In this document: one piece after another, positions 49,398 to 55,442 of the stretch
Numbering within the stretch: the stretch's first letter is position 1
Layout of the letters: each line of letters begins with the position of its first letter
From: Haloplanus sp. HW8-1
GTDB lineage: Archaea; Halobacteriota; Halobacteria; Halobacteriales; Haloferacaceae
Assembly (NCBI RefSeq): GCF_023703795.1
Contig: NZ_CP098518.1
Span: 2,976,001-3,040,000 of the forward strand
DNA: 64,000 nt
Direction of reading: 5' to 3'
Made by a program: the position numbers and the translations under genes
The notes under the pieces: model-generated
What the model was told of the DNA's origin: nothing
Seen by the model: the letters and a program-made list of their open reading frames with translations, nothing else
Database searches by the model: none

Positions 49398-51011
49398 ATG
49401 ACACGAGACACTGCGGACGACGCCGACGGAGTCGACGGCGAGGACCGACGGTCCTCGGTCGAGACGACCCCCGCCACCGACGGGGGGAAGGACACCGCCA
49501 GCGGCGCGGACGACGTGGCGCTCGACCCCTGGGGCTCCTCGACCGTCTCCGACTACCGCAAACTGTTCGACGAGTTCGGTATCGAGGCCTTCGACGAGGT
49601 GCTAAGCGAGGTCCCCGAACCCCACTACCTGATGCGTCGGGGCGTCATCTTCGGGCACCGCGACTACCGTTCCGTCGCCCGCGCGCTCCGGGCGGGCGAG
49701 GACGCCGCCGTCCTCTCGGGCTTCATGCCCACGGGCGACCCCCACATCGGCCACAAACTCGTCTTCGACGAGATCATCTGGCACCAGGAGCGCGGCGCCG
49801 ACGCCTACGGCCTGATCGCCGACCTCGAAGCCCACAGCGCCCGCGGCCTCTCGTGGGACGAGATCGACGACCACGCCCGCGACTACCTGCTCTCCCTGCT
49901 CGCCCTTGGCTTCGATCCCGAGGACGGCGAACTCTACCGGCAGTCCACGAATCGGGAGGTGCAGGATCTGGCCTTCGAACTCGGCTCGAACGCCCGCTTC
50001 GCCGAGTTCGAGGGGATCTACGGCTTCGACGGCGAAACCTCCGTCTCACACATGCAGTCGGTCGTCACCCAGATGGCCGACATCCTCTACCCCCAACTGG
50101 AGGAGCCGAAGCCGACGGTCATCCCCGTCGGCCCGGATCAGGATCCGCACATGCGCCTCGCGCGGGACGTGGCCGCCCGGATGCGCTACTTCAAGGTGAC
50201 CGAGGCGTACGCCTCCTTCGAGGCCGAGGCCGCCGAGCGTGACCACCTCGCGGCCGCCTACGCCGCCCTCGAAGACGACCGGGAGGTCGTCCGCTGTGCG
50301 GACGCGGCCGACTGGCTGGACGCGGAGATGACGCCCGACGCCGTCCGCGACGCGGCGATCGAGAAGCTCCGGTCCGCGGGGAAGGAGCCGCTCCGCCCCC
50401 GCGTGCGCTTCCTCGACCGCAACGCCACCGACGAGGCCTTCGACGCCCTGATCGAGGCGGTGCCGGGCGAGAAGCGCCGCTACGACGAACACGTCGACGC
50501 CTTCGAGATGGACCGCGAGGCGGCCGAGGAACTCGCCCGCGAGGTGGAGGTCGACAACGGCGGCTACGGCTTCCGTCCCCCGTCGTCGATCTATCACCGG
50601 TTCATGACCGGGCTGACCGGCGGGAAGATGTCCTCCTCCGTCCCTGCCTCCCACATCTCCCTGCTCGACGACCCCGAGGACGGCTACGACAAGGTGAGGG
50701 CGGCGACGACGGGCGGCCGCGAGACGGCGGCGAAACAGCGCGAACTCGGCGGCGAGGCAGATGAGTGTCCCGTCTACGAGCTGTACGCCTACCTGCTGGC
50801 GGGCGACGACGACGAGTTCGCCACCGAAGTGTACGAGGAGTGTGTCGGCGGCGAACGCCTCTGTGGCGGCTGTAAGGAGCAGGCCGCCGAACTCATGCGG
50901 GAGTTCCTCGAAGACCACCAGGAGAAACGCGCGGAGATGGAGGCCGTCCTTGACGATCTGGACCTCGACCTCGACTCGGAGCGCCGGGGCGTCGCCGGCG
51001 ACGAACACTGA
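49398..51011 (+). CDS. trpS: tryptophanyl-tRNA synthetase
   Basis: 537 residues, longer than bacterial TrpS but usual for archaea. An acidic disordered N-terminus of about 45 residues precedes the class I core. HIGH motif in PTGDPHIGHK (116-119) and KMSKS variant GGKMSSS near 411-417. VIPVGPDQDPHMRLARD lies in the active-site region. Near the C-terminus ERLCGGCKEQA resembles a zinc site. Translated just after endA, followed by a hairpin terminator. Confidence 0.95.
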   Translation: MTRDTADDADGVDGEDRRSSVETTPATDGGKDTASGADDVALDPWGSSTVSDYRKLFDEFGIEAFDEVLSEVPEPHYLMRRGVIFGHRDYRSVARALRAGEDAAVLSGFMPTGDPHIGHKLVFDEIIWHQERGADAYGLIADLEAHSARGLSWDEIDDHARDYLLSLLALGFDPEDGELYRQSTNREVQDLAFELGSNARFAEFEGIYGFDGETSVSHMQSVVTQMADILYPQLEEPKPTVIPVGPDQDPHMRLARDVAARMRYFKVTEAYASFEAEAAERDHLAAAYAALEDDREVVRCADAADWLDAEMTPDAVRDAAIEKLRSAGKEPLRPRVRFLDRNATDEAFDALIEAVPGEKRRYDEHVDAFEMDREAAEELAREVEVDNGGYGFRPPSSIYHRFMTGLTGGKMSSSVPASHISLLDDPEDGYDKVRAATTGGRETAAKQRELGGEADECPVYELYAYLLAGDDDEFATEVYEECVGGERLCGGCKEQAAELMREFLEDHQEKRAEMEAVLDDLDLDLDSERRGVAGDEH

Positions 51012-51037
51012 CGGCATTCGGCCGTCAGAACGCTTTT
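51008..51037 (+). terminator. hairpin after trpS, overlapping its stop
   Basis: CTGACGGC-ATTCG-GCCGTCAG, a perfect 8-bp stem with a 5-base loop starting in the trpS stop codon, followed by AACGCTTTTG with a short T-run. It fits a terminator of the endA-trpS unit. The CTTTTG also lies about 27 bases before the leader ORF ATG and could serve as its TATA element. Confidence 0.55.
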
Positions 51038-51062
51038 GCCTCGCGGCGCGTTTCGAACGGGT

Positions 51063-51143
51063 ATGGCGACCGAACCCGCCCCGCCCGCCCCGCTCGTCCG
51101 CGAAGCGACCGCGCTCGGGTTCGGCTTCTTCTTCGAGGCCTGA
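51063..51143 (+). CDS. candidate phenylalanine-rich leader peptide of pheST
   Basis: A 26-residue ATG ORF, 115 bases before pheS, ending in GFGFFFEA: four Phe, all TTC codons, among its last eight residues, and no other Phe. The start lies about 27 bases after CTTTTG, the usual leaderless spacing here. After the stop come small hairpins (51146-51158 and 51161-51175, the latter TCCGCC-CGC-GGTGGA), but no clear U-run. The content suits a peptide that senses charged tRNA-Phe and controls pheST. No archaeal mechanism is assumed; a chance ORF remains possible. Confidence 0.55.
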   Translation: MATEPAPPAPLVREATALGFGFFFEA

Positions 51144-51257
51144 AACCACGGTCGGTGGACTCCGCCCGCGGTGGACGGACGAAACCGGGCCGCTCGGTGG
51201 GCCACGCTTCGGAACCCCTAACTGACCGGCTCGGATGCACCTGAACAAGAACGACGC

Positions 51258-52772
51258 ATGCAACTCCCGGAATCACAGGTCGCGGTGTTGGAAGCCGCGA
51301 GCGCGACGGAGCAACGGACGATCGAACAGGTGAGCGAGGAGACGGGGCTCGACCCGGCGACGGTGACGGGTGCGGCCTTCGACCTCGACGATGCGGGGCT
51401 GATCGCCGTCTCGACCGACGAGACGGTGTCGCACGCCGTCACCGAGGAGGGCGCGACCTACGCCGAGGCGGGGCTGCCAGAGGTGCGACTCTACCGCGCC
51501 GCCCTCGCGGCCGGCGCCGACGAGGAGCCCGTCTCGATGGGGACGGTCATCGGGATGGCCGACCTCGGCGACGCCATCGACATCGCGCTGGCGAACTACG
51601 CGCGCAAGGGCTACGGCGAGGTCGAGTCGGGAGAGATCACCGCCGATCCCGACCGGGACCCGGACGCCGATCCCGAGGCCGCTGCCCTGAACGTCCTCGC
51701 CGAGGGCGACGACGATCCGGAGACGCACGCAGATGCGGACGCCCTCGACCAACTCGTGCGTCGCGGCCTCGTCGAGCGAAGCGAGCGGACCGTCCGCTCG
51801 ATCACGCTCACGGACGCGGGCGTCACCGCGCTGATGGAGGGCGTCGAGGTCGCGGAGACGGTCGACCGCCTCACCCCCGAGATGCTCGCCTCCGGCGAGT
51901 GGCGGGACGTGGCGTTTGCGGACTACAACGTCGAGGCCGACGCGCCCGAGACCCGCGGCGGCACGGTCCACATCCTGCGTCAGACCGCCGAGCGCGTGAA
52001 GGACACGCTCGTCGGCATGGGCTTTCGGGAGATGGACGGCCCCCACGCCGACGCGGAGTTCTGGATCAACGACTGCCTGTTCATGCCCCAGGACCACCCG
52101 GCCCGCACCCACTGGGACCAGTTCGCGCTGGACGTGCCGCCGATGGAAGAGATTCCCGAGGACCTCATCGAACGCGTCCGTTCGGCCCACCTGGAGGGCG
52201 TCGGCGAGGACGGGCAGGGCTACCACTCCCCGTGGACCGAGGCGGTCGCCCGCGAGGTCGACCTCCGGGGGCACACGACGTCGCTGTCGATGCGCTACCT
52301 GTCGGGTCACGAGATCGGCGACCTCGACCCGCCCGAACGCTTCTTCAGCGTCGAGAAGGTGTACCGCAACGACACGCTCGATCCGACGCACCTGCTGGAG
52401 TTCTTCCAGATCGAGGGCTGGGTGATGGCCGAGGATCTCTCGGTGCGTGACCTGATGGGCACCTTCGAGGAGTTCTACCGGCAGTTCGGCATCACCGACC
52501 TGCAGTTCAAGCCCCACTACAACCCCTACACCGAACCGAGCTTCGAACTGTTCGGCGAGCATCCCGAGACGGGCGAGTTGATCGAGATCGGCAACAGCGG
52601 GATGTTCCGCGAGGAGGTCCTCCGACCGCTCGGCGTCGACTGCGACGTGATGGCCTGGGGGCTCGCCCTGGAGCGACTGCTCATGCTCATGTACGGCTTC
52701 GACGACATCCGCGACGTCCACGGGACGCTCTGTGATCTGGACCTCCTGCGGAACACGGAGGTGCTGCACTGA
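51258..52772 (+). CDS. pheS: phenylalanyl-tRNA synthetase alpha subunit
   Basis: 504 residues, archaeal type. The N-terminal region has winged-helix DNA-binding-like repeats (QRTIEQVSEETGLDPATV); the class II catalytic domain from about 225 has FWINDCLFMPQDHPAR (motif 1 region), EKVYRNDTLDPTHLLEFFQ (motif 2) and MAWGLALERLLMLMYG (motif 3). Forms the alpha2beta2 enzyme with PheT. CCTAACTG about 35 bases upstream may be a promoter separate from the leader ORF. The stop overlaps pheT (TGATG). Confidence 0.96.
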   Translation: MQLPESQVAVLEAASATEQRTIEQVSEETGLDPATVTGAAFDLDDAGLIAVSTDETVSHAVTEEGATYAEAGLPEVRLYRAALAAGADEEPVSMGTVIGMADLGDAIDIALANYARKGYGEVESGEITADPDRDPDADPEAAALNVLAEGDDDPETHADADALDQLVRRGLVERSERTVRSITLTDAGVTALMEGVEVAETVDRLTPEMLASGEWRDVAFADYNVEADAPETRGGTVHILRQTAERVKDTLVGMGFREMDGPHADAEFWINDCLFMPQDHPARTHWDQFALDVPPMEEIPEDLIERVRSAHLEGVGEDGQGYHSPWTEAVAREVDLRGHTTSLSMRYLSGHEIGDLDPPERFFSVEKVYRNDTLDPTHLLEFFQIEGWVMAEDLSVRDLMGTFEEFYRQFGITDLQFKPHYNPYTEPSFELFGEHPETGELIEIGNSGMFREEVLRPLGVDCDVMAWGLALERLLMLMYGFDDIRDVHGTLCDLDLLRNTEVLH

Positions 52773-54499
52773 TGCCCGTCGTCGACGTCGACCCCGACGA
52801 ACTCCGCCGGCTGACGGGCCACGAGGGGAAGGACGACGGCGAGTTGATCGACGACCTGTTCGCCCTCGGCTTGGAGTACGAGGGCGAGACCGAGGACGGC
52901 GAGTTGCAACTGGAGTTCGGCCCCGACCGCCTGGATCGCCTGTCCGTCGAGGGGATCGCCCGGTCGCTTCGCTACCAGTACGGCGACGACCGCGGCGTCT
53001 ACGTGCCGAACACGAACGATCCGGACTGGACGATCGTCGTCGACGAGTCGGTGCCCGACGAGCGGCCGTACGTCACCGGCGCCGTCGTTCGGGGCGTCGA
53101 CCTCGACGACGACGCCCTCGACTCACTGATCCAGTTACAGGAGAAACTCCACGCGACGATGGGGCGCAAACGCGCCAAGGGCGCCATCGGTATCCACGAC
53201 CTGACGATGCTGAAGGGCGCGTCGTACCGCGAGGAGGGCGAGAGCCGGAACTCGATCACCTACCGCGGCGTCGACCCCGAGGGCGACCGGTTCGTCCCCC
53301 TCGATTCCGACCGCGAGATGACGCCCGCGGACGTGCTCGTGGACCACCCGACCGGCGAGACCTACGCCCCCATCGTCGAGGAGTACGACCGCTATCCCGC
53401 CATCTACGACGAGATCGGGCTGTTCTCGTTCCCGCCGGTCATCAACGGCTGTCGGACCGAGGTGTCGACCGACTCGCGCGAACTGTTCGTCGAACTCACT
53501 GGCACCGACCAGTGGACCATCGACCGGATGTGCAACGTGATCTGCTATGCCCTCGATGCCCGCGGCGCCACCATCGAGGCGGTCGACGTCGAGTACGCGG
53601 ACGGTCGGCTCCGTCGACCCGACTTCGAGGCGGAGCGAAAGACCGTCGCCCACGAGCGCATCGAGGGGATGCTCGGAATCTCCCTCGATGTCGAGGAGGC
53701 GGTCGACCTGTTCGAGCGGTCGGGGCTGGACGCCGAACCGAACGGCGACGATGGAGCGGTCGGCGGCGTCACTTACGAGGTGTCGATCCCGCCGTACCGC
53801 ACCGACGTACTCCATCCGCTCGATCTGATCGACGACGTGGGGCGGGCCTACGGCTTCAACGACCTCGACCCTAGCTATCCGGACGTGGCGACCGTCGGCG
53901 GCCGCCACGAGCGATCGACGCTCGAAGCGGCGGCCCGGACGACGCTCGTCGGCCTCGGGTTCGAGGACCTGCTCAACTTCCATATGATCTCCGAGGGGGA
54001 GAACTACGAGCGAATGGGGATCTCCCCGGGCACCGACGTCGTCGGCGGCGCGTCCCCGGTGACCATCACCGAACCGTACAGCGAGGACTACACCATGCTC
54101 CGGACGTGGGCGCTCCCCTCGCTGCTGATGGTCCTCGAGAACAACACGCACCGGGCGTACCCCCAGGACCTCGCGGAGATCGGATTGGCGGCGGGTGCGG
54201 ACGACGACGAGAACACCGGCGTCGCGGAACACCGGACGGTCGCGGGCGTCCTCGCGCGCCACGACGCCACCTACGAGGACGCCAAATCGCGGCTCGCCGC
54301 CCTGTGTCGGGACTTCGATGTGGACCTCGAAACGCCCGCGACGGACCACCCGACGTTCATCGACGGCCGCGCGGCCGACGTCGTGATCGACGGCGAGTCC
54401 GTCGGCGTGATCGGGGAGGTGCATCCCCGGGTGCTGGTCGATCACGACCTCGAACTGCCCGTGGCGGCCTTCGAGTTCCGACTGGATGCGCTGGCGTAG
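52772..54499 (+). CDS. pheT: phenylalanyl-tRNA synthetase beta subunit
   Basis: 575 residues, archaeal length. B3/B4 region with AIGIHDLTMLKGASYREEG and PPVINGCRTEVS, B5 domain near 280-360 with VSIPPYRTDVLHPLDLIDDV, and the catalytic-like B6-B7 domain with EIGLAAGADDD and GVIGEVHPRVLVDHDLELPV. Its final 38 bases and stop are repeated 150 bases downstream (see repeat entry). Starts on the A of the pheS stop. Confidence 0.96.
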   Translation: MPVVDVDPDELRRLTGHEGKDDGELIDDLFALGLEYEGETEDGELQLEFGPDRLDRLSVEGIARSLRYQYGDDRGVYVPNTNDPDWTIVVDESVPDERPYVTGAVVRGVDLDDDALDSLIQLQEKLHATMGRKRAKGAIGIHDLTMLKGASYREEGESRNSITYRGVDPEGDRFVPLDSDREMTPADVLVDHPTGETYAPIVEEYDRYPAIYDEIGLFSFPPVINGCRTEVSTDSRELFVELTGTDQWTIDRMCNVICYALDARGATIEAVDVEYADGRLRRPDFEAERKTVAHERIEGMLGISLDVEEAVDLFERSGLDAEPNGDDGAVGGVTYEVSIPPYRTDVLHPLDLIDDVGRAYGFNDLDPSYPDVATVGGRHERSTLEAAARTTLVGLGFEDLLNFHMISEGENYERMGISPGTDVVGGASPVTITEPYSEDYTMLRTWALPSLLMVLENNTHRAYPQDLAEIGLAAGADDDENTGVAEHRTVAGVLARHDATYEDAKSRLAALCRDFDVDLETPATDHPTFIDGRAADVVIDGESVGVIGEVHPRVLVDHDLELPVAAFEFRLDALA

Positions 54500-54667: not shown

Positions 54668-55068
54668 TCAGTAGGTCTCGATATCGACGCCGAACCGCTC
54701 GAAATCCGCCACGTTCCGTGTGAGAACCGGCTCAGCGACGATCTCCGCGGTCGCTCCGATGATCACGTCCCCGTCGGCGACGGCGTCCCCCTCGTTCGCT
54801 AGCTCGCCCGACAGGCGGCCGGCCTTCCGCATCACTGCGGTGTCGGCGGGATGAATCGGCTTCGAGGCCAAGACGTTCTCGACCGTCTCGCGCTCCGTCT
54901 CCGACTGCTTCGAGCGTGCAACCCGTGCTGTAACTCGAACAGCGTCATCGCCGAGACGCGTTGCTGAACGAGGTTCGCCTCCAGTTCCCGTGCTTTCTCC
55001 ACGGCTCCGCCGTCACCGTCCATCAAGTCGATCAGAAACGACGTGTCGAGGAGCACGCTATGGCCCAC
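54668..55068 (-). pseudogene. vapC: VapC-family PIN toxin, frameshifted
   Basis: Reads as one PIN domain of about 133 residues if a base is restored near 54913-54918. First part: MGHSVLLDTSFLIDLMDG with the first catalytic Asp and FELQHGLHA with the Glu. Second part in the next frame: SKQSETERETVENVLASKP, ADGDVIIGATA with Asp, and LTRNVADFERFG with the last acidic site. As written, translation leaves the frame after LHAR and stops 24 residues later, so the RNase would be inactive. Starts inside the vapB gene (11-base overlap). Confidence 0.8.
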
Positions 55069-55300
55069 GCAGTCGGTCGGCGACCCCTTCTAACTCCTCG
55101 TGGCGTCGCGCTCGGCGCTCGTCGACGGCTCCCCGGAGTGCGTCGGCCTCGTCGTCGTCGAGGATTCCGGCGAGGTCCAGCAGCGACCGCTCGCCGGCCA
55201 GCCTGAGGACGACCTCCGAGAACGTCTCGTCGTCGCGTTTGTGCGCGGCGAGACGTTCGTAGGCGTCTTCGGAGAGACGGATGCTCTTCGACATGTGCAT
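55058..55300 (-). CDS. vapB: VapB-family antitoxin
   Basis: 80 residues (78 if the second ATG at 55294 is used). N-terminal ribbon-type DNA-binding start MSKSIRLSEDAYERLAAHK, then ETFSEVVLRLAGERS, a hinge and an acidic helical tail that would wrap the toxin. Intact although its toxin is frameshifted. CTTTTGCAACG lies about 27 bases upstream, and a perfect palindrome covers the start codon, so autoregulation is likely. Confidence 0.78.
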   Translation of the reverse strand: MHMSKSIRLSEDAYERLAAHKRDDETFSEVVLRLAGERSLLDLAGILDDDEADALRGAVDERRARRHEELEGVADRLRGP

Positions 55301-55314
55301 ACGGTTGTATGCAC
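55295..55314. promoter_or_regulatory. palindromic operator at the vapB start
   Basis: GTGCATAC-GGTT-GTATGCAC, perfect 8-base arms with a 4-base spacer, lying between the vapB TATA element and its second ATG and containing the first ATG. Placement is typical of a site where antitoxin represses its own gene. Confidence 0.6.
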
Positions 55315-55442
55315 GTTGCAAAAGCGCTTTTCCCGGCCGGCGTCCTCCCCGACTCGCCCGTCCGGTATACGAACTAATCGTCCGGCTTGCGACCCCAACC
55401 GAGGCGTTTAACACCGGCCGCTCCGGTAGCCCCACGCGAGCA

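Follow-up and report, generated by a model that had tools for sequence, protein, structure and literature searches.

A conserved phenylalanine-codon leader ahead of haloarchaeal pheST looks like an attenuator-type sensor of tRNA charging

The window, a stretch of 64,000 nt from Haloplanus sp. HW8-1 (contig NZ_CP098518.1), carries on its plus strand the genes for both subunits of phenylalanine--tRNA ligase, namely pheS for the alpha subunit (51258–52772; NCBIfam NF003210, TIGR00468) and pheT for the beta subunit (52772–54499; NCBIfam TIGR00471). The nearest named relative of this pheS is that of Haloplanus ruber (80%), and genomes of the same genus reach 82–89%. Upstream, trpS ends at position 51011. 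Between trpS and pheS lies an ORF of 26 codons and a TGA, MATEPAPPAPLVREATALGFGFFFEA (51063–51143, plus strand; TGA at 51141–51143), whose frame is conserved and whose stop codon is separated from pheS by 114 nt. Four TTC codons for Phe occur among its last eight sense codons (GFGFFFEA) and none elsewhere; these are the putative sensor codons F20, F22, F23 and F24 (51120–51122 and 51126–51134, plus strand). A BRE/TATA-like promoter core for a leaderless leader mRNA, AACGCTTTT (promoter P1; 51029–51037, plus strand), is located at −34 to −26 from the ATG. On the other side of pheST, a VapBC-like toxin-antitoxin pair was recognized by eye on the minus strand between pheT and a valS-like gene (54668–55435), with the PIN-like frame seemingly divided between two reading frames.

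A sequence-only reading of this DNA had singled out the ORF with its terminal Phe run and its leaderless spacing from a TATA-like element, and had held that a lack of conservation in relatives would refute its proposed role as a Phe leader. We surveyed 130 haloarchaeal pheS loci, comprising those of 80 named genomes and others retrieved by genome searches. A clear leader precedes pheS in 110 of them, a weaker one in 7 (including the Halorubrum version, DAFGPFFE) and none in 13. The clear leaders have about 23–29 codons and the form M-x-[ST]-[ED]-[PS]-...-GFGFFFxx, and they are found in Haloferacaceae as well as in Halobacterium-like, Haloarcula-like and Natrialbaceae-like genomes. No Phe leader was found at 20 pheS loci of other Halobacteriota lineages, one of which has a MTFFFIMNLL frame far upstream. 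In some 90–95% of 105 leaders the promoter box, AACGYTTTT, lies at a single fixed distance from the ATG, the same as in the window, which is the spacing of a leaderless start. Of 292 genomes of Halobacteria, 122 contain the exact DNA pattern for GFGFFF, compared with about a dozen matches in all for the reversed control, and the genomic sites examined are mostly upstream of pheS; the off-target matches retrieved away from pheS proved to be pieces of unrelated frames. The ORF is thus not a chance frame: its Phe run and its promoter spacing have been kept through the Halobacteria. At three loci (L061, L111 and L008) the pheS homology begins at non-start codons, with an in-frame ATG two codons upstream, which is probably ordinary N-terminal variation.

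The leader appears to be read as codons and not conserved as a protein. Phe is almost limited to the final nine residues (98 of 105 leaders have no earlier Phe) and variants retain at least three Phe codons. Leader length differs by whole codons; the distance from the CCGAAYCC block to the GFG block is mostly 41 to 62 nt, a spread of about 20 nt, yet 80 of 85 leaders keep a single frame, with distances congruent to 2 modulo 3. In the middle of the ORF, by contrast with this constancy of frame, codon differences among relatives are 244 nonsynonymous against 77 synonymous. A frame that is kept around an unconstrained peptide middle is the pattern predicted for a leader peptide. Third-position bias, looked for as a sign of translation, is absent from the leader ORFs, as would be expected of a leader, and the peptide matches no NCBIfam family.

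The two conserved ends of the ORF pair with each other. Region A, CCGAACCCG (51070–51078, plus strand), lies in codons 3–6 and forms the 5′ arm of a helix with region B, CGGGTTCGG (51116–51124, plus strand), which consists of the Gly-Phe-Gly codons and contains the first Phe codon. Across leaders, the 'MxxEP' start contributes codons 3–6, which read CCGAACCC or CCGAAUCCC, and their partners in the Gly-Phe-Gly codons read GGGUUCGG or GGGAUUCGG. The A:B helix is 8–11 bp long in nearly all leaders, whereas shuffled B sequences mostly give 4–6 bp. In 65 sequences, 96.9% of the A:B cells are paired, and the covariation count has 92.6% of cells paired and 130 changed on both sides, compared with 39.6 in shuffles, figures that were obtained in the best-fitting register, which somewhat favours A:B, and from related sequences that are not independent. 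In Halopenitus and Halorussus aquaticus a U-A pair replaces the C-G pair of other leaders, and in Haloplanus ruber the compensation alters the peptide itself, from Glu to Asp and from the first Phe to Val (CCGACCCCG/CGGGGTCGG). Codon choice points in the same direction: all 66 leaders use GGG or GGA for the first Gly (background 30%; the usual Gly codon is GGC), so that the synonymous choice follows A:B pairing, and the conserved N-terminal Glu-Pro/Ser is likewise explained by the pairing of region A. These data bear on the idea of a functional microprotein as the product of the ORF, which the conservation of an N-terminal MxxEP/S and a C-terminal GFGFFF would favour. Both motifs are RNA-pairing segments that change in compensatory fashion and, together with the unconstrained middle and the lack of a family match, this makes a microprotein highly improbable.

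Apart from the Phe run, no stretch is U-rich; within that run, five or six consecutive U occur in 31 of 70 leaders and TTT is strongly enriched among the codons (25% versus 5.7%). The enrichment could reflect a U-tract function; the leader itself might contain a site of termination or pausing, or the codons might be slow ones. It could be argued that A:B and the U-rich Phe codons form an intrinsic terminator within the leader, which translation over region A would prevent from acting; such a device would sense translation in general and not Phe, and the Phe codons would be mainly a by-product of the U-tract. Most leaders do have 6–8 U in the 11 nt that start within 1 nt of B, and some variants with fewer Phe codons retain long U-runs. 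However, the leader of the window, like others, carries only UUC, giving runs of 2; Halopenitus retains four Phe codons despite a broken U-tract (GFEFGF); and the Trp leaders described below have no U-tract after B, but their UGG codons are cognate to TrpRS. We therefore regard an in-leader terminator as unlikely.

Downstream of the stop codon the RNA can form a second element, C:D (51149–51191, plus strand), composed of an outer stem (stem P1), an internal loop UGGAC/CGAAA (51156–51160 and 51180–51184) and an inner hairpin (P2). The sequence-only reading had described small hairpins after the ORF; what follows the ORF is one conserved element, and the other helix, A:B, lies within the ORF itself. 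The layout across loci is an outer stem near the stop codon, a 5+5 internal loop (YGGAN/NGAAA) and a variable inner hairpin. The loop core, GGA and GAA, is invariant across an alignment whose members were located mainly via this loop motif. Double changes occur in 10 of the 11 pairs, 92.1% of the cells are paired, and the covariation score is 0.655 compared with 0.207 in shuffles. The C:D element of the window scores 42.3 bits with covariance model R1, some of its stem pairs being non-standard. In this genome, as in every one of several congeners, the model gives a single strong copy, at the pheS leader; it matches 61 of the 80 named loci, every time directly 3′ of the leader position, and has no match at pheS where the leader is missing (13 loci). 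The C:D loop was compared by eye with the kink-turn, the T-box and other known motifs, and Rfam returned no match; tested against the covariance models of T-box riboswitches and other leader families in Rfam, 50900–51400 gave only one chance hit below threshold. A natural deletion variant occurs in two small-genome relatives (L120 and L121), where the leader is only 35–37 nt from pheS and the C:D hairpin is missing.

As the earlier reading had remarked, there is no U-run after the ORF: between the leader stop and pheS, T-runs are at most 3 nt long in all 71 distinct loci. No terminator-like site was found there, and a search for a downstream sequence competing for A or B gave no partner better than shuffled sequence. 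A textbook arrangement of mutually exclusive terminator and antiterminator folds is consequently not supported; factor-dependent termination of the archaeal kind between leader and pheS is possible.

The possible second promoter that had been placed around 51215 corresponds to an element that is indeed conserved, CGGAACnnnTAACTG (= CGGAACCCCTAACTG; 51210–51224, plus strand), and is probably a second core promoter of pheS. Its sequence conservation exceeds what is usual for a haloarchaeal promoter. Since the element lies 24–31 nt from pheS and is retained even in loci that have no leader, pheST might be transcribed mainly from here, with the leader RNA as a separate short transcript or as one that interferes by its passage. 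Published transcript starts argue otherwise. According to Table 2 of a dRNA-seq study of Haloferax volcanii (PMC4983044), the 5′-UTR of HVO_2948 (pheS) contains a 26-aa uORF, and the TSS lies upstream of this uORF with no additional TSS given at pheS, so that transcription from a downstream promoter only, which had been named as a refuting outcome, is not what is reported. In addition, no CGGAACnnnTAACTG-like element was seen in L120 or L121, and their short gap, without this element or C:D, suggests that pheS can be transcribed from the leader promoter. A downstream promoter would also leave the cognate codons unexplained. Taken together, we consider this alternative quite unlikely.

The same table of PMC4983044 lists a 23-aa uORF ahead of the tryptophan--tRNA ligase gene HVO_A0127, where again no further TSS is given for the ligase gene itself. 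Since uORFs at HVO_2948 and HVO_A0127 appear together, we examined TrpRS genes. In other haloarchaea, ORFs of 22–30 codons with WRW-type Trp codons precede trpS, for example MVSTSRATCWRWRSTWEVDSIAV, MASTSTDRWRWCWQAPEVDSLAAVTRRA and MQSAPTCWRWRAPGADSLAFAA; they stand ahead of two kinds of trpS, one of plasmid type and one orthologous to the trpS in the window. The window's own trpS, which follows an endA-like gene, has no Trp leader ahead of it. In the Trp leaders a block directly behind the start codon forms a helix with one that follows the Trp codons (GUCCACUUCC/GGAAGUGGAC, GUCCGCUCCC/GGGAGCGGAC and CCGCUUCCG/CGGAAGCGG), and double changes occur in 5 of 12 pairs of this helix. The Trp-leader pattern lies within such an ORF in 26 of 28 matched genomes, and the gene that follows resembles trpS by its N-terminal sequence. 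With Trp/TrpRS beside Phe/PheRS, codons match the gene twice on one shared plan, which strengthens the cognate-codon logic. Trp leaders with the 5′ helix were noted before the two kinds of trpS at many loci (L164, L165, L171–L180, L184–L188, L250, L253–L255, L257, L260, L268, L270–L293, L295 and L296). A conserved CUCNCUCCGCUUUYUCG-like tail occurs downstream of them; it could serve as a terminator of the U-rich kind or as one more partner for pairing. The table also includes HVO_A0165, with a 23-aa uORF of 2640 Da ahead of an SNF-family transporter gene (PMC4983044, Table 2); one Trp leader, MVSTSHANCWRWHASREVDSIAV, has a mass of 2643, and the HVO_A0165 uORF may be the Trp leader of a Trp transporter.

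The proposal that haloarchaeal pheST senses Phe-tRNA charging through translation of the leader is supported by the conservation of the ORF, by the H. volcanii TSS and by the Trp leaders, and we think it likely that a ribosome-mediated leader-peptide sensor of this kind controls pheST. RNA polymerase would start at or beside the leader ATG, and a ribosome would load onto the leaderless 5′ end. A:B would form only when the ribosome covers neither A nor B; free of ribosomes, it could pause the polymerase until translation begins and later shut the leader start site. Because A:B involves nucleotides 8–16 of a leaderless mRNA, it would also hamper loading at the start codon. When Phe-tRNA is scarce, the ribosome would stall at the Phe codons over B, keeping A:B open and leaving C:D free to form. 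When Phe-tRNA is plentiful, the ribosome would reach the stop codon, mask the 5′ side of C:D and depart, after which A:B could close. The distances are consistent with such a scheme: the stop codon is mostly 6–11 nt, and the last Phe codon mostly 15–20 nt, ahead of the C:D loop, so that a terminating ribosome would mask the 5′ arm of C:D and a Phe-stalled one would do so less. This geometry fits a switch operated by ribosome position, with footprints estimated from the general size of the ribosome. We infer that stalling is the signal and, by the usual logic, that starvation should increase PheRS; the output might be premature termination, the stability of the mRNA or the translation of pheS, and we favour an effect on transcription.

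In bacteria, pheST, pheA and trp are controlled by ribosome-mediated attenuators with the leader peptides pheM, pheL and trpL. The haloarchaeal leader resembles these in being a short ORF rich in cognate codons, as judged from its frame, Phe codons and spacing, ahead of the genes of the cognate synthetase or pathway, and in having conserved, covarying hairpins that overlap the ORF and lie 3′ of it. It differs in its leaderless start and archaeal promoter, in the placement of the 5′ arm in codons 3–6 and in the post-stop hairpin with a conserved internal loop. Its mode of action would be that of a bacterial leader-peptide attenuator, yet it departs from that family in two structural respects, having neither a U-run terminator nor a competing pairing that could be found. 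T-box riboswitches likewise control aminoacyl-tRNA synthetase genes by tRNA charging, but they bind the tRNA directly, involve no peptide and gave no Rfam match here. The uORF of HVO_2948 has the same length and place as the leader of the window and is almost certainly the same element; PMC4983044 lists it as a small-protein uORF, an entry that makes no mention of a Phe run, RNA structure, conservation or attenuation. That coupled attenuation is hardly described in archaea, as the sequence-only reading had it, agrees with a statement in PMC8448881 that none was known as of 2021. Our full-text searches of the open-access literature returned nothing on archaeal leader-peptide attenuation, and earlier work may exist. 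We lean towards the broader view that tRNA charging in haloarchaea is read by a class of cognate-codon leader peptides (Phe/PheRS, Trp/TrpRS and perhaps more) by way of a helix between the first codons and the sensor codons of a leaderless mRNA, and that this would be the first ribosome-mediated attenuation in Archaea, operating without a classical terminator. If so, a second domain of life would couple leader translation to synthetase gene expression, and would do so on leaderless mRNA with an RNA polymerase and ribosomes of eukaryote-like type; this can be tested directly, since the leader is conserved and covaries in a class that includes genetic model species (Haloferax volcanii, Halobacterium). 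Set beside its bacterial counterparts, the pheST leader appears to be the first sensor of tRNA charging in Archaea that follows the bacterial attenuator pattern.
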